Shown one piece after another: positions 17,431-26,679 of a DNA stretch of 64,000 bases. Below the pieces are notes generated by a model that was given only the letters and a program-made list of their open reading frames with translations, was not told where the DNA came from and searched no databases. The first letter of the stretch is position 1, and each line of letters starts with the position of its first letter. Both the position numbers and the translations under genes were made by a program. Source of the DNA: Leptothermofonsia sichuanensis E412 (GTDB lineage Bacteria > Cyanobacteriota > Cyanobacteriia > Leptolyngbyales > Leptolyngbyaceae); the NCBI RefSeq assembly GCF_019891175.1, contig NZ_CP072600.1, positions 3,534,001-3,598,000 of the forward strand. The letters run 5' to 3'.

Positions 17431-19029
17431 TCACAACTCCCCTGCAATTTGTTGGATTTTAATAATCACAAACTCTGCCGGTTTCAGGGGCGCAAAGCCC
17501 ACTTCAATGTTGACAATGCCGCGATCGCGATCTGCCTGAGTTGTCGTCTGTCCATCACACTTGACGTAAAAGGCTTTGTCAGGCGTGCTGCCCTGGAATG
17601 CGCCCTGACGGAACAAATTCAACATAAAGGTATTGAGGTTCAACCGGATCTGTGCCCACAGCGGTTCGTCATTGGGTTCAAACACCACCCACTTCGTTCC
17701 CCGATAGAGGGATTCTTCCAGGAACAGCGTCAGCCGCCGAATTGGGATGTACTTCCACTCAGAGGCGAGGCGATCAGCCCCTTGCAGAGTCCGCGCCCCC
17801 CACACCACCCGCCCGACTGCCGGAAATGCTCGCAAACAGTTGACCCCCAGAGGGTTCAACTCCCCATTTTCGGCATCGGTCAAATTCACACTCAAATCCA
17901 CCACCCCATTTAGCCCTGCATCCAGGCCAGCCGGTGCTTTCCACACTCCCCGCTGAGCATCGGTTCGGGCAAAGACACCGGCGATCGCCCCAGAGGGGGC
18001 AAAATCTTCAAGCTGGTTTTCCCGCAGGGGATTGGGCTGTCTCAAACGGGGGAAGAACAATGCGGCATTTCTGGCATTGCTACTGCCCACATTACTGATC
18101 ACGGCATCGACCCCGGTTCTGGCATCCTCCTTCCGATCCCAGTCGCTGGGCGGATCGACTAACAGAAAAGCCCGCCGATCCAGGCAATACTTCGCCGCTG
18201 CCGTAATGACGCTACCATCCACATCCCCTGTGCTGGTGTAGGGCGGGATGCACAGAAGGTTGAACAGATCCGTTTTCTCCAGGGCATAAAGCCCCCGCTT
18301 TTCTGCCCGCATCAATGGATCAGTCGGATCGTCGAACTGCAAATGCGTCAGTCCACTACCATTACTCCCACTGTTAGCCGTTGGGGTAATCGGAGAGGAA
18401 ATCGGGATTTCTGAAGGTCGCACATTGGGGACAATCCAGTTGCCGCCTAGATCCTTCCGCACCCGCAGCAGATCCGAGCTTTGTACCAGCACCCTGGGAA
18501 CATACCGGGGGTTGGCTGGATCCACCGAAAGATTGATCAACTTCTCGCTGGCAAGGGTTCTGCCACTGACCGGCTCGACTTCCACCACGGTTAAGTTAAA
18601 CAAAAATGTCAGCGGATTGGCGGGATCGGTCGGATCTTTGGTGTTGTGATCGACCGTCAGCCTCAGATTGTTGCCCCATGCCCCCTCATTGGCCGCAACC
18701 AGTTGCAGAAAATCATTGGGAGCGGCAGCACCGGTTGGCAGGTTAATCGTAGCGGCGGTTCCGCCATTGTGAAGCCGCACGATGATCGCCTGACTGCCTC
18801 CATTCTGGAAGAAATCCCGTACTGCAAAACCCAGGTTACTCTCGCCCCACAGCCCGCCAAAGATGCGTCCAAAGTCGCCGAAGCTGTTGATGGTAATCGG
18901 TTCATTGGTCGGTCCCCGCACTGCTCGACCCACAAAGGCTGTAATTGAAGTGGCAACCCCGGTAATTGTGCGAACCCCACTGGGAACCTCCTCAATATAA
19001 ACACCGGGATAGGTAGGAGTGGTGGGCAT
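17431..19029 (-). CDS. Contractile tail sheath protein
   Basis: A 532-aa sheath protein. The N-terminus TYPGVYIEEVPSGVRTITGV (residues 5-24), followed by SITAFVGRAVRGPTNEP, is the classic sheath start with the N-terminal arm that links subunits. Further typical parts are FGRIFGGLWGESNLG, AVRDFFQNGGSQAIIVRL, and the C-terminal YIPIRRLTLFLEESLYRGTK and WVVFEPNDEPLW, with FVIIKIQQIAGEL at the end. The sheath contracts to drive the tube. As second gene of the cluster it is probably one of the most highly expressed. The 137-bp gap to the tube gene has no other gene and includes a possible hairpin region without clear terminator. Confidence 0.95.
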   Translation of the reverse strand: MPTTPTYPGVYIEEVPSGVRTITGVATSITAFVGRAVRGPTNEPITINSFGDFGRIFGGLWGESNLGFAVRDFFQNGGSQAIIVRLHNGGTAATINLPTGAAAPNDFLQLVAANEGAWGNNLRLTVDHNTKDPTDPANPLTFLFNLTVVEVEPVSGRTLASEKLINLSVDPANPRYVPRVLVQSSDLLRVRKDLGGNWIVPNVRPSEIPISSPITPTANSGSNGSGLTHLQFDDPTDPLMRAEKRGLYALEKTDLFNLLCIPPYTSTGDVDGSVITAAAKYCLDRRAFLLVDPPSDWDRKEDARTGVDAVISNVGSSNARNAALFFPRLRQPNPLRENQLEDFAPSGAIAGVFARTDAQRGVWKAPAGLDAGLNGVVDLSVNLTDAENGELNPLGVNCLRAFPAVGRVVWGARTLQGADRLASEWKYIPIRRLTLFLEESLYRGTKWVVFEPNDEPLWAQIRLNLNTFMLNLFRQGAFQGSTPDKAFYVKCDGQTTTQADRDRGIVNIEVGFAPLKPAEFVIIKIQQIAGEL

Positions 19030-19089: not shown

Positions 19090-19506
19090 CTATGGAGTCG
19101 GATCTCGACCCACTAAGATTTCGATCGTCGCTCGATTGGCGGGATTAGCCGCATAGGTGCTGCTGAATTTGAGGATAATTGGATCTCGCTGGAATACAGA
19201 TACTGCACCTCTCCCCAGGTAGAAATGGGGTTCATCCAGGGCGATCGCACCGGAATCTGTTGTCCCGTCACTGACAATATAGGTCAACCGTCTTGCCGGA
19301 TCATCCTGACTGTAGAGGGTTGATTTGATTAATAGAAAATTGACTCGACTGGCAGCCCCCGGTTGAATTTCAACCACCTGATTAACTGCACCAGGTTCGA
19401 CTGTAACTTCAATCTTGTCGTAAGCCTCGACGGATTTGGCTCTGGTAATCAGGACTTGAGGTCCTCCTACGATCTGTACGTTTAAGGTCACATTGACTGT
19501 TGCCAT
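19090..19506 (-). CDS. Small beta-rich protein at the head of the injection-system cluster
   Basis: A 138-aa protein of unknown family, the first gene of the cluster. It is beta-rich, starting MATVNVTLNVQIVGG, with VTVEPGAVNQVVEIQPGAAS in the middle and KFSSTYAANPANRATIEIL near the end. It has no signal peptide or membrane segment and few charged clusters. GAGGAA lies 7 bases before the ATG. It ends 60 bp before the sheath gene. Position suggests a structural or decorating protein of the particle, but nothing in the sequence proves it. Confidence 0.65.
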   Translation of the reverse strand: MATVNVTLNVQIVGGPQVLITRAKSVEAYDKIEVTVEPGAVNQVVEIQPGAASRVNFLLIKSTLYSQDDPARRLTYIVSDGTTDSGAIALDEPHFYLGRGAVSVFQRDPIILKFSSTYAANPANRATIEILVGRDPTP

Positions 19507-21292: not shown

Positions 21293-21459
21293 GAATCCCT
21301 CCAACAGGCAGCATTCTATTGTATCCAGATTCGAGTGCCTCTCGTCTAAGTAGAATGCCCAGGCTGAAAGAAATTTTTGCCCGGATATTTGCTCATTCGG
21401 AGAATACCAGCTCTGGAAAACACCTGTTGGAGCAGGGTGCACTACAACCCCAACCAGCC

Positions 21460-21792
21460 CTATCCCCTGTTTCCTGTCCCCTGCTTTTCAGCAACCCCTC
21501 CCACAATTCCACGGGTTCTCACTGAACCCGGTTCCGTCTCAGCTTCTATCTGGAGGAAATTCAGAGTCCTCTCCCGCCGTGTTCGCTGTTCAGATTCATT
21601 CAGCAGACTGGTCAGGATCATCATAATAATGGCGATCGCAATTGCTATCAAAAATAAGTTCGGTAACTCATCACCCACCTGGCTGACCCGTCGCCACTCC
21701 CCACATACCCGACAATACTCCACATCTTGTTTGTCAGGATGGGTCACAATCTGGCAACGGGGCATGAATCGGTCACTGTAGGGGCACTTCAT
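21460..21792 (-). CDS. Small membrane protein with N-terminal cysteine motif
   Basis: A 110-aa protein of unknown family. The N-terminus has a possible zinc-ribbon: CPYSDRFMPRC (residues 3-13) and YCRVCGEW (about 31-38). One strongly hydrophobic helix follows (LFLIAIAIAIIMMILTSLL, about 50-68) and then a charged region. GAGG lies about 8 bases before the ATG at 21792. Upstream in-frame codons to 21990 look non-coding. The last residues (KQGTGNRG) are encoded by a CCCTGTT-like heptamer repeat, so the C-terminal tail is probably repeat-derived. Confidence 0.6.
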   Translation of the reverse strand: MKCPYSDRFMPRCQIVTHPDKQDVEYCRVCGEWRRVSQVGDELPNLFLIAIAIAIIMMILTSLLNESEQRTRRERTLNFLQIEAETEPGSVRTRGIVGGVAEKQGTGNRG

Positions 21793-22233
21793 TGGACTAT
21801 CCTCGATTTTCAGCAAAAAGTAATCTGTTGTATGGCAAACAGAGCGATTCCCACTCCGTTTTGTATATCTATTTGATATATATTTGATATACAAAAATTC
21901 TGTATCCAATGCTACAAAACTCTGGGATGGATTGAGGGCAAGAGGGGAGCGTTGGCTGGCATGGTCATGAGGTAGTCCCTGCGATCGCACCTGAAATGCC
22001 GATTAAATTTACGATAAGACTTGAAGATTCAGTAAACTGCCAGTAGAATTAATTCCATCCGTCTTGGCTCAGGTGGTTTCAATAGCAAAGTTCTTTGTGG
22101 GAGCGGAGCGTATAAACAAATGATGAAACCTGACTACAGGATCTATGTTTCTGTCCCAAAGTTGGATACAATTGATAGCCGGAATAGCGCAAATTCAGCC
22201 AAACGTATATCAACGGAGTATTCTGAAGCCAAC

Positions 22234-22800
22234 ATGGACAGAAAACCTGATAGAAAACTGGTGAGCTTCCGCCTGCCCGAAGATCTCATGCAAGACCTGA
22301 GACAGCGGGCAGAAAGCGATAATATCTCTGTGACTGAACTGGTTTACCGGCTGTTAAAACAGGGACTCCAGGCTAATGTAGATGACCGCATTTCCGCCTT
22401 AGAAGCGGAACTTCAGGAGCTTAGAAAACTGCGGCAGATGCATTTCAGCGGTCTTTCCCCCGCTCCCTTCTACACCATGCTTCCTGCCAGTGGGTACGCT
22501 CCAGAGAGTGACATCGAAACCAGACAGCGCGTTGCCAGGTTAGAGGCCCAACTGGAGGAAGTCATGACGAATGTCAAGCACATTGGGGCTTTGCCTTCCT
22601 ATTTGGCAAAACTGGAAACTTTGATTGAGGAGGTGCAAACCAGTCGAGTGGTGACCCCAGCTCCGCCTATCGATAATTCAGCAAATGCCTGGTGTGAGGA
22701 GGTTGAACGCAAGAATGTAGATCGGGAAATTGTTCAGTCCGTGTATCCCACTAAAAAGTCCCCTTCAGAGTCAGAGCGTTCATCTGAGGAAGTGGCATAG
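22234..22800 (+). CDS. Ribbon-helix-helix protein with coiled coil (possible antitoxin/repressor)
   Basis: A protein of about 188 aa. Residues 5-46 form a ribbon-helix-helix (CopG/Arc-like) DNA-binding module: KLVSFRLPEDLMQDLRQRA, then ISVTELVYRLLKQGLQ. A coiled-coil stretch follows (DDRISALEAELQELRKL), a proline/tyrosine linker, a second coiled-coil (RQRVARLEAQLEEVMTNV), and an acidic C-terminus. It precedes the PIN-like gene by 85 bp on the same strand, the layout of antitoxin-toxin pairs, but the C-terminal part is longer than in usual antitoxins. The start is ambiguous: 22234 puts the DNA-binding fold at the N-terminus as usual, while an in-frame ATG at 22120 is also possible. Neither has a strong ribosome-binding site. 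Confidence 0.7.
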   Translation: MDRKPDRKLVSFRLPEDLMQDLRQRAESDNISVTELVYRLLKQGLQANVDDRISALEAELQELRKLRQMHFSGLSPAPFYTMLPASGYAPESDIETRQRVARLEAQLEEVMTNVKHIGALPSYLAKLETLIEEVQTSRVVTPAPPIDNSANAWCEEVERKNVDREIVQSVYPTKKSPSESERSSEEVA

Positions 22801-22885
22801 GTCACCTGTTGATGTTGCGTGATTACATTCGTGGTTGAATTCGTCAGGTCTCATCAATGTTTCGCATTGTGTCCCATAGAGATTT

Positions 22886-23827
22886 ATGCGCAATGCTTTA
22901 ATTACTGCTAATGTTTTCCAGAATGTCTTCAAAGATATTCTGGGAAAATCAACCCCGCACCAGCGATACTATGTCGATTTGCTACGCCGACTGGCCGTGC
23001 AGGACGTTCGCTGGTACATGACTGATCATGATTACGCACTAGCCTGCAACTTCTGGGGAATCTTCAGTTTCTATGAAGATCCGGTGTGTATGGAGGCTTA
23101 CTGGAACCTCCTGCAACTGGTTCATGTTTGCCCAATCGACACCTGGATCCTGGAAGAAGCCGGGTACTACCACCAGATCAACTTCTGTGATGCCTTGCGG
23201 TTAGCCACGGCTGTTGCCTACCAACTGGATGTGATTGTCACCTGGGAACCCTATTTGTTTGCCCGAACGCTGAAAGAACATCATCAATTTGAAAGTAACT
23301 GGTCCTTGTTTGTGCGAATTCCCAGTCACAGTGGTGAGTCCGATGAAACTGCCGAATGCAAAATCGGGGTCTTTTCTGTAGGGGCGTTTCTACTCTGGCC
23401 CGACAGCGCGGCTGAACTGGTTGCCAGTGAAGTGCAGACCCTGCCGTATTTCTGCCTGGAGCAATGCAATCTTCTCTGTGGCGACGCAAATGAAGCATCG
23501 GTCTTCCTGCGCAATCCCTCCGGGAAACTGTTTGAAGCCACCGCCAGGGGAGTGACTCCCTTTGATGCGATTCAACGGGCTGTGGACCAAATAGCCAACG
23601 ACTGTTTTCCAACCTTGCCACCCCGTCACTTGAGCCGCTTTTTTGTTCCCCAGGCAACTCTGTTTGGGGCAGATGCCCCGATTGAAGTCGTGATCCGCAT
23701 TGAGTGTGCCAGTCAGAGCTTTCAGGAAGGAGCCAGCCACAGCAGCGTTTTTTATGCTGCTACCGATGCCTATGTCAAAGTCATTAACAAAATTTGCCAG
23801 CACCCCAATTCGTCAGTTGTGGCCTGA
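22886..23827 (+). CDS. PIN-like domain fused to a LeuA-type regulatory domain
   Basis: A 313-aa protein. The N-terminal half resembles PIN-domain nucleases. ALITANVFQNVF occupies the place of the usual first-acidic motif (DTNVLLD-like) but lacks the aspartate. FCDALRLATAVAYQLDVIVT (about 99-118) then WEPYLFART matches the PIN C-terminal motif. The second half resembles the allosteric dimerisation domain of 2-isopropylmalate synthase: YFCLEQCNLLCGDANEASVF, GVTPFDAIQRAVDQI and SSVFYAATDAYVKVINKI. The catalytic TIM barrel of LeuA is absent. With the RHH gene just upstream it may form a toxin-antitoxin-like or regulatory pair. The missing first aspartate suggests weak or no nuclease activity. Domain assignment is by eye; the combination is unusual. 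Confidence 0.6.
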   Translation: MRNALITANVFQNVFKDILGKSTPHQRYYVDLLRRLAVQDVRWYMTDHDYALACNFWGIFSFYEDPVCMEAYWNLLQLVHVCPIDTWILEEAGYYHQINFCDALRLATAVAYQLDVIVTWEPYLFARTLKEHHQFESNWSLFVRIPSHSGESDETAECKIGVFSVGAFLLWPDSAAELVASEVQTLPYFCLEQCNLLCGDANEASVFLRNPSGKLFEATARGVTPFDAIQRAVDQIANDCFPTLPPRHLSRFFVPQATLFGADAPIEVVIRIECASQSFQEGASHSSVFYAATDAYVKVINKICQHPNSSVVA

Positions 23828-23833
23828 TGGTCT

Positions 23834-24655
23834 CTACACCAGAGGAAAGAAAATTCTCATATAGGTTGCCACCATCGCCTCTCCCCAAAAGGCTGCCAGC
23901 AAAGCGCCCAATGCCAGAAAAGGACCAAATGGCATCGGTTGACGACGGTTGAGGATGCCGAGGGCGATCGCCCCGCCGCCAATCAGCGAACCGACCAGAC
24001 AGGCAAGGAAACCTGCCAGCAGCAAATACTTCCAGCCTAGCCAGGCACCCATCATGGCGGCCAGTTTGGCATCTCCTGCGCCCATTGCCGTTTGTCCCAG
24101 GGTAATGGTTCCCACCAGGCTAATGATTTCGACCAGCCACAACCCTACCACCACCCCCACCATCCCATACATGAGTTGGTGGATGGCACCCGTTAAAGTC
24201 CCGGTTGTCAACAACCCCAAGGCCGCCTGAAACCCCAACCCGATGACCAAACCTGATTGAGTTAATGGGTTGGGCAATGTCATGGTGTCCAGATCGATCA
24301 GCGCCAGTGCCAGCAACCAGCTCAAAAACAGCCAGTACCCCAACGTCAGCCAGGACCAGCCAAATAGCCAAAACGTTAACAGATACAACAATCCTGTCAC
24401 CCCCTCTACGAGGGGATAGCGCACCGAAATGGGTGTACCACAATGGGCACAGCGCCCCTTTAACCACAACCAGCCCAAAACAGGCACATTCTCTCGCTTC
24501 CTCAGTGGAGTCAGACATTTGGGACAGCGAGAAGGGGGATAGAGCAGCGACAGCCCTGCTGGAATGCGATATACAACCACATTCAGGAAGCTGCCAACGG
24601 ATGCCCCTAAAAGCAATATGGCAACAGCAACAGACAGATCAAAGAGAAGATTCAT
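23834..24655 (-). CDS. pilD: Prepilin peptidase (type IV, A24 family)
   Basis: A 273-aa inner-membrane aspartic peptidase that cleaves and N-methylates type IV prepilins, needed for pili, motility and DNA uptake. The N-terminal methyltransferase-like domain has GASVGSFLNVVVYRIP and the zinc pairs RCPKC and RCAHCGTPIS. Catalytic aspartates are in DLDTMTLPNPLT and MGAGDAKLAAMMGAWLGW. Six to eight hydrophobic segments span the sequence. The start at 24655 (MNLLFDLSVAVAILLLG) is typical; an upstream frame to 24706 has no family resemblance. It converges with the PIN-like gene with only 6 bases between the stops. Confidence 0.93.
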   Translation of the reverse strand: MNLLFDLSVAVAILLLGASVGSFLNVVVYRIPAGLSLLYPPSRCPKCLTPLRKRENVPVLGWLWLKGRCAHCGTPISVRYPLVEGVTGLLYLLTFWLFGWSWLTLGYWLFLSWLLALALIDLDTMTLPNPLTQSGLVIGLGFQAALGLLTTGTLTGAIHQLMYGMVGVVVGLWLVEIISLVGTITLGQTAMGAGDAKLAAMMGAWLGWKYLLLAGFLACLVGSLIGGGAIALGILNRRQPMPFGPFLALGALLAAFWGEAMVATYMRIFFPLV

Positions 24656-25512: not shown

Positions 25513-26601
25513 TTATTTCCCTCCAATCGCCTGGATCAATGCATCTCCCATCGCACGACAGCCCAGTAGAGTCATGCCCTCAGACATGATGTCTCCCGTT
25601 CTGTAATCTTGGTCTAACACTTTTAGCACAGCTTCTTCAATTCGATCCGCCGACTCAGATTGATTTAATCCGTAGCGCAACATCATGGCAGCACTGAGAA
25701 CCATTGCCAGCGGATTTGCCCTGTCTGTTCCTGCAATATCGGGGGCAGAGCCGTGAACGGGTTCATAGACCCCTGGACCGGAGGACCCTAGACTGGCAGA
25801 GGGCAACATCCCAATACTGCCAGTGAGCATGGCAGCCGCATCGGACAGGATATCGCCAAACAGGTTGCCCGTAACAATTGTGTCAAATTGACGAGGATTG
25901 CGCACCAACTGCATAGCAGCGTTGTCTACGTACAGATGGGTCAGTTCCACGTCGGGATACTCGGATGCAAGGGCAGTCATGCGATCGCGCCACAGTTGGG
26001 AAACTTCCAGGACATTTGCCTTATCAACAGAGCAGAGTTTTTGCCGCCGCTTACGAGCCGTCTCAAAAGCGACGCGCCCAATCCGGTCAATTTCGGACTC
26101 GGTATAGGCCATTGTGTTGACGCCCCGCTTCTCTCCAGTTTCGGTGGCAAAAATGCCTCTGGGCTGGCCAAAATAAATGCCCCCTGTCAATTCGCGCACC
26201 ACCATAATGTCCACACCTTCGACCACCTCTCGCTTCAGGCTGGAGGCATCGATCAACTGGGGCAGAATGGTAGCAGGCCGCAGGTTGGCAAACAGTTCCA
26301 AGCCTGCCCTCAGCCCCAAAAGCCCGGTTTCGGGGCGCAAATGACGTGGGAGCGAGTCCCATTTGTAGCCGCCGATCGCCGCCAGCAGCACGGCATCACT
26401 TTGTTTACAGATTTCTAACGTCTCGGGGGGTAAAGGCTCACCCCTGGCATCGATCGCCGCCCCGCCAATCAGGGCTTCTTCAAATTCAAAGGATAGGTTA
26501 CTCTGTTTGCCGATCTCGTTCAGCACATCTACGGCAACTGCCATAATTTCGGGACCAATTCCGTCGCCGGGAAGGAGTGTAATCTTAAAGGATTGTGTCA
26601 T
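25513..26601 (-). CDS. leuB: 3-isopropylmalate dehydrogenase
   Basis: A 362-aa NAD-dependent enzyme oxidising 3-isopropylmalate in leucine biosynthesis; cytosolic homodimer. Motifs are [12 protein letters not shown] at the N-terminus, [14 protein letters not shown] (about 138-151), the lysine/aspartate catalytic region and [20 protein letters not shown] (about 240-260), then [18 protein letters not shown] for NAD binding. Length is normal. The start at 26601 gives the usual N-terminus; the frame extends to 26637 without resemblance. It is a single-gene unit, with a heptamer-type array downstream. A protein with a LeuA-type regulatory domain is encoded about 1.7 kb away, which may be coincidence. 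Confidence 0.96.
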
Positions 26602-26679
26602 GTCGGTCGTGAATCCTGGGGTAGTGCCTGGGCGCAATGCGGCTACCTATCATACCCTGGATATGACCCGGCGAATGTG

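Follow-up and report, generated by a model that had tools for sequence, protein, structure and literature searches.

Among described systems, the closest to the locus reported here are the toxin-antitoxin pairs VapBC and FitAB, in which an RHH gene comes first and a PIN-fold gene second. Their antitoxins carry a toxin-binding tail, VapC binds VapB, and a VapBC member is recognized by an antitoxin-like DNA-binding gene that adjoins the PIN gene and by a PIN catalytic site built from four acids. RHH DNA binding is also coupled to metabolite sensing in the ligand-sensing repressors NikR (RHH plus ACT domain) and MetJ. LeuA and citramalate synthase, on the other hand, are metabolic enzymes with a regulatory domain at their C-terminal end. 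In M. tuberculosis LeuA, L535, A536, V551, Y554, A558, A565, and A567 are reported to be residues of the leucine site, and the yeast enzyme is reported to have lost feedback inhibition by leucine when G531, G533, and A536 were mutated (PMC2704214).

The gene pair described here, which occurs in two subfamilies, shares with VapBC and FitAB the order of the genes and possibly autoregulation, which would act through boxes upstream of the pair. It differs from them in that the catalytic quartet is broken in both subfamilies, the PIN half is fused to a LeuA regulatory domain, a divergent membrane-protein gene is frequent, and toxicity is not indicated. With LeuA and citramalate synthase it has in common the fold of the C-terminal domain and, in subfamily 2, a GxGPVDA/GxGPIDA loop; unlike those enzymes, it has no enzyme part and carries a PIN fusion, and most of subfamily 1 has an altered loop. 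A link between RHH DNA binding and metabolite sensing would liken it to NikR and MetJ, but here the sensor would be carried by the partner, a second protein that descends from a PIN toxin. Since the full set of catalytic acids that defines VapBC is lacking, we class the pair as a derived variant and not as a VapBC member.

The stretch that was analyzed, hereafter the window, comprises 64,000 nt of Leptothermofonsia sichuanensis E412 (GCF_019891175.1, NZ_CP072600.1 positions 3,534,001-3,598,000). An earlier note, made from these letters, had pointed to two ORFs whose order resembles that of an antitoxin and a toxin. Both were found in the ORF list of the window (Table 1), and the order extends well beyond it: the PIN-LeuA gene is immediately preceded by an RHH gene on the same strand in 18/18 loci of subfamily 1 and 8/8 loci of subfamily 2. 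The two genes are therefore conserved jointly, with an antitoxin-like DNA-binding gene adjoining the PIN gene in 26/26 loci. The gap between them ranges from ~30 to ~330 bases (22 loci), and no PIN-LeuA fusion without an RHH gene was seen among the loci found. Promoter and terminator scans of window positions 21400-23950 yielded no excess over shuffled sequence.

Table 1. Features of the RHH/PIN-LeuA locus, in window coordinates
Feature	Position	Strand	Evidence
RHH DNA-binding protein, 188 aa, with helical low-confidence C-terminal extension	22234..22800	+	ORF, model, 26/26 loci
Degenerate PIN - LeuA-regulatory-domain fusion, 313 aa	22886..23827	+	ORF, Pfam, AlphaFold, VIA-align
PIN-fold half, residues 1-170; Thr7, D49, D102, E121, TANVFQN motif	22886..23395	+	
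LeuA/citramalate-synthase regulatory domain, residues 187-308	23444..23809	+	PF08502; Z 15.6 to 3f6h; LeuA alignment
Putative operator, GTATATC boxes	21859..21896	.	
Second putative operator box (CAAACGTATATCAA), ~29 bp 5' of RHH start codon	22200..22213	.	
Divergent gene, 110-aa protein, putative regulated target	21460..21792	-	

The RHH ORF, as called mechanically, opens at 22120, and conservation sets in at about the internal ATG at 22234, as the earlier note implied. The predicted RHH fold of the first protein rests on Pfam matches that are all below threshold (CopG_antitoxin, 24.2 bits against a cut-off of 28), on an AlphaFold model, and on weak Foldseek matches. The model has helices at residues 16-29 and 33-46 preceded by an extended segment, and its pLDDT has a block mean above 90 at residues 11-40 and a whole-protein mean of 65.1. 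Foldseek placed Arc at the top and also matched VapB-type antitoxins, AmrZ, and CopG, all with E 0.3 or worse. The RHH proteins of subfamilies 1 and 2 are homologous over 60 columns (99.3%). In subfamily 2 a variable linker follows, and then a conserved C-terminal tail (e.g., PLAALRKLL) that resembles the toxin-binding tail of antitoxins.

The N-terminal half of the second protein was assigned by fold. Pfam gave no PIN match in the window protein, and PDB sequence searches with this protein, and then with its profile, returned no matches; fold comparison did. In the AlphaFold model (mean pLDDT 80.6, from an 11-row alignment), VIA-align superposed residues 1 to ~170 on VapC/FitB-type proteins with a best Z of ~10-11, and in profile-profile comparison the N-terminal half matched, with a probability of 97.2%, a profile built from five PIN proteins of cyanobacteria that stand alone; the three proteins of this profile that were scanned by Pfam all match PIN_3. 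These results bear out the PIN-like fold that had been suggested from the sequence. The suspected loss of the first catalytic aspartate was likewise confirmed, the window protein having Thr7 at this position. Throughout subfamily 1 the position is occupied by Thr (17/18) or Cys (1/18), and the remaining acids are kept: D49 in 18/18, the fourth acid (E121) in 18/18, and the third (D102) in 17/18 (Asn in L096), the second position being uncertain because D49 falls a few residues off the canonical one in the alignments. A TANVFQN motif occupies the first-Asp site; most subfamily 1 proteins conserve it, and subfamily 2 does not share it. All 8 proteins of subfamily 2 retain the first Asp, followed by Glu, and the third and fourth acids are absent in 8/8. 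The PIN-LeuA proteins of the two subfamilies are nonetheless homologous over 275 columns (99.5%, E 2e-22).

A four-acid PIN catalytic site was thus found in neither subfamily, and judging from the alignments neither is able to build the usual one. The loss of different acids in two homologous lineages is what would be expected if nuclease catalysis were dispensable and the fold were not. Rough dN/dS ratios point to constraint: 0.06-0.15 for the PIN half (4 pairs, dS high), 0.08-0.11 for the LeuA half (3 of 4 pairs computable, dS also high), and 0.07-0.14 for the whole gene (5 pairs, dS saturated in some). Since both subfamilies are without the four-acid site and yet have low dN/dS, the PIN half appears to be kept for a noncanonical role or a new site, and the conservation of D49, E121, and D102 in subfamily 1 would allow for a noncanonical active site. 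The earlier note had offered either an amino-acid-responsive nuclease or a dead-PIN regulator; because the two subfamilies lack different catalytic acids, the second part of this alternative is favored and the first is not.

The C-terminal half matched the Pfam family LeuA_dimer (PF08502) at residues 186-303 with E 2.5e-8 and 34.3 bits, against a cut-off of 24.9. Foldseek retrieved the isoleucine-bound regulatory domain of LiCMS (3f6h, E 4.5e-7) and M. tuberculosis LeuA (3fig, E 1.2e-5), and the alignment of the domain on 3f6h listed in Table 1 was obtained with VIA-align. The above-cut-off profile match and the regulatory-domain fold together assign this half to LeuA_dimer; the enzyme part is absent, in agreement with the earlier description of a LeuA-regulatory-like domain standing without it. 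When the LeuA of the same genome was searched against the PDB in order to map the leucine pocket, only the enzyme part aligned. The GxGP loop of the domain presumably corresponds to M. tuberculosis G531-G533. Its second Gly is replaced by Ser or Thr in 15/16 rows of subfamily 1, with Gly in L099 only, and the loop is intact in 8/8 proteins of subfamily 2; the LeuA rows in this alignment were chosen by the GxGP motif itself and hence are no test of the motif. Set beside the yeast mutations described in PMC2704214, the altered loop suggests that leucine itself may not be the ligand in subfamily 1. From the loop sequences, a branched-chain ligand is plausible for the domain of subfamily 2, whereas most of subfamily 1, to which the window belongs, may plausibly have changed or lost its ligand.

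The pair of RHH and PIN-LeuA genes was detected in at least 26 of 388 cyanobacterial genomes, 18 with subfamily 1 (including the window) and 8 with subfamily 2. Members of subfamily 2 were missed by a scan that scored five candidates per genome and were found by further scans. Among 58 relatives, the fusion is present in 11 and damaged in two of these (G006 and G023), and the window RHH protein used as a query matched all 11 carriers and, weakly, two non-carriers. A scan of named genomes gave ten relatives, which include Leptolyngbya sp. FACHB-36, L. cf. ectocarpi LEGE 11479, and MAGs labelled Leptolyngbyaceae or cyanobacterium. RHH matches were obtained in 52 genomes, comprising 26 carriers and 26 non-carriers. 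All 17 of the 388 genomes with an RHH-profile match of E 1e-24 or better carry the partner (PIN-only in G191), in a ranking that favors carriers, as the profile was made from them. No PIN-LeuA gene lies beside the RHH match in eight of the non-carriers (G001, G017, G284, G385, G122, G329, G217, and G272).

The distribution of the module is patchy, and altered copies occur in four genomes. The reading frame of the fusion is broken in G006 and G277, which may be an assembly error, and in G277 (subfamily 2) the N-terminal part lies in another frame. The fusion of G023 (L010 2251-3714) is truncated near the end of the LeuA domain, within its last part, and G191 (L096 3072-3635) has a PIN-only protein with Asn at the third acid, with the RHH gene present and no LeuA domain. 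In L010 a gene that looks by eye like a transposase follows the shortened fusion gene. In G001, which belongs to the genus of the window, a remnant of the fusion, ~40 residues from its C-terminal end, was seen at L044 ~2600-2720, directly downstream of a gene that we take to be glmS-like; no other fusion match was found in this genome, and the module seems to have been lost from its lineage. A different RHH pair was observed in G001 (L045 2140-3012) and G284 (L161 2026-2951), with partners of ~140-150 aa that resemble each other and have no relation to PIN-LeuA. The plasmid collection contained no match to the window PIN-LeuA protein. Membership in an anti-phage defence family was considered and rejected, as none of the four proteins tested had a PADLOC match.

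The RHH gene is preceded by a long intergenic region, beyond which most loci have a divergent gene. Neither this gene nor the boxes described below figured in the earlier note, and both are new here. The divergent protein of the window has one hydrophobic segment and the pairs Cys-x9-Cys and Cys-x2-Cys, which we read by eye as a possible zinc ribbon; Pfam gave nothing above cut-off for it. Its homologs were found in 8 of the 58 relatives, all of them among the 11 carriers, and in all 8 the best match is at the RHH/PIN-LeuA locus, with one extra weak match elsewhere in G030. When 24 of the 26 loci were inspected (L118, which has too little upstream sequence, and L099 were left out), 21 had a divergent ORF with a hydrophobic segment within 700 bp, the others being L060, L094, and L097; up to three ORFs of at least 45 aa were considered per locus, and a hydrophobic segment was defined as a 19-residue mean of at least 2.0. 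As a rough background, such an ORF was found for 23 of 113 genes, although these were genes of at least 150 aa and the comparison is not like for like. Zinc-ribbon-like cysteines are present in 15 of the 21 divergent ORFs. Several apparently unrelated types of divergent membrane-protein gene were observed (L056, L095, L096, L162, L051, and L052), as if the putative target gene had been exchanged.

The intergenic region is rich in GTATATC-like boxes. Counted in 23 of the 26 loci (leaving out G037, G256 (near-identical to G262), and G214), at least one box is present in 22/23 upstream regions, spanning both subfamilies, with L060 lacking it. The 23 regions hold 62 boxes against a shuffled mean of 6.9 and maximum of 18 (500 rounds), and 7 box pairs with a spacing of exactly 11 bp (shuffled mean, 0.01); because the pattern was devised with the sequences already in view and the loci are related, the counts are not independent, and the shuffles ignore both. 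Box density is 5.9 per kb upstream versus 0.30 per kb in the remainder of the same loci. When no pattern was preset, the most widespread 8-mers were TATACAAA (17/23), ATATACAA (16), and GATATACA (15). In the window, the boxes at 21859-21896 form a perfect 11-nt inverted repeat (TTTTGTATATC/GATATACAAAA) around an 11-bp direct repeat, and the box close to the RHH start recurs in 3 other loci. We infer that these boxes are putative operators of the RHH protein.

A scan of 10 genomes with the box pattern placed the locus among the matches in 10/10. Specifically, 6 of the 9 matches with up to two mismatches are at the locus, the other three lying elsewhere in G030, G023, and G018. With up to three mismatches there were 48 matches, 11 at the locus and 37 elsewhere, compared with 19 in all for a reversed control, and a differently spaced, wrong pattern gave no matches. 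These counts give no strong sign of a large regulon, and a few further sites may exist. Three-mismatch matches in or just beyond leuA were noticed at G015:C1:3742070 and G018:C221:27520, and they were judged to be chance because their positions differ.

The gene leuB (25513-26637) lies 1.7 kb from the pair, a nearness that the earlier note had raised as a possible link. Among 24 stretches (23 distinct loci), the leuB motif was seen near the pair in the window only, with the other stretches covering 3-13 kb and that of the window 24 kb. On this count the nearness looks like chance, and the link is not upheld. On the other side of the pair, the window contains a gene for a contractile tail sheath protein (17431-19029, - strand; PHROG tail sheath, E 6e-56) beside a small gene without a PHROG match (19090-19506), possibly part of a phage-tail-like injection system or of a prophage. 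Directly upstream of leuA in two other loci (L100 3219-3737 and L102 2705-3166, both - strand) there is a gene that we take to be a LabA/NYN (PIN-like) protein, so a PIN-superfamily gene may adjoin a real leuA too.

We consider that the RHH protein and the degenerate PIN-LeuA protein are probably a switch for their own genes and for the neighboring membrane-protein gene, and not a toxin system. The computed basis consists of the predicted folds, the gene pairing, the degeneracy of the acids, the constraint, the enrichment of boxes, and the frequent divergent membrane ORF; contact between the proteins, DNA binding, lack of nuclease activity, the ligand, and the direction of control are what we infer from it. 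In this model, the RHH protein would act at two promoter regions, its own and the one of the divergent membrane-protein gene, by binding the GTATATC boxes there. The PIN-LeuA protein, derived from a PIN_3/VapC toxin and presumably no longer a canonical nuclease, would bind its RHH partner as VapC binds VapB and would raise or bridge the binding of RHH to DNA. The LeuA-type domain would dimerise the complex and would most likely switch state on binding a small ligand akin to the branched-chain amino acids. Stated in full, as a domesticated VapBC-type module turned local transcriptional switch, with a dead PIN co-regulator and a LeuA domain that dimerises and likely senses a ligand, we give this explanation about an even chance of being right. 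Several observations count against a switch: three of the 24 loci have no divergent membrane ORF and the ORFs are of several types, the module is patchy and L060 has no box, and the box at -29 is very near the start codon. More tentatively, and with somewhat less confidence than doubt, the pair could be a new type of metabolite-responsive, two-protein transcription regulator that combines a nuclease-less VapBC with the allosteric domain of leucine synthesis, a bidirectional promoter, and exchangeable small membrane proteins, in which an amino-acid (or 2-keto-acid) signal read on the pseudo-toxin would control RHH binding.

The same locus could alternatively encode a true VapBC-type toxin-antitoxin with a noncanonical nuclease site, whose toxicity the LeuA domain gates by the level of branched-chain amino acids. 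The VapC/FitB-type fold, the conserved D49, D102, and E121 of subfamily 1, and the invariable RHH gene upstream speak for it, and every fusion seen is accompanied by an RHH gene, as would also be expected of a toxin dependent on its antitoxin. Such a toxin is nevertheless unlikely, given that the first Asp is missing in 18/18 proteins of subfamily 1 and the third and fourth acids in 8/8 of subfamily 2, and that the natural variant L096 has lost the third acid as well; the PADLOC and plasmid results are weak circumstantial points in the same direction. It is similarly improbable that the switch operates as proposed with a LeuA domain that dimerises only and senses nothing. In its favor, the LeuA regulatory domain also serves for dimerisation, as its Pfam name states, L096 is entirely without it, and most subfamily 1 proteins have an altered GxGP loop, but the loop is intact throughout subfamily 2 and in L099, and in the three computable pairs the two halves, LeuA and PIN, are under similar constraint. 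Least credible to us is that the degenerate PIN has turned into another kind of enzyme or into an RNA-binding protein and that the RHH protein controls only its expression: entries named for the cyclodehydratase RohQ (9oq8, 9c5w) are among the fold matches of the PIN half (Z ~8) and TANVFQN sits at the first-Asp site, but the motif is not shared by subfamily 2 and the flanking genes inspected suggest no pathway.

The earlier note knew of no described system that joins an RHH protein with a PIN-LeuA fusion, and our searches of open-licence papers, judged by titles and the starts of abstracts, showed none. If the proposed switch is correct, the locus would be a natural and testable case in which a toxin-antitoxin pair has come to serve ordinary gene control, its sensor domain originating from a metabolic enzyme and its catalytic site having been lost across the family by two routes. 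It offers concrete candidates for the operator, the partner, and the class of ligand. For RHH-PIN pairs of Cyanobacteria, it would mean that gene order alone is insufficient for annotation as a toxin.
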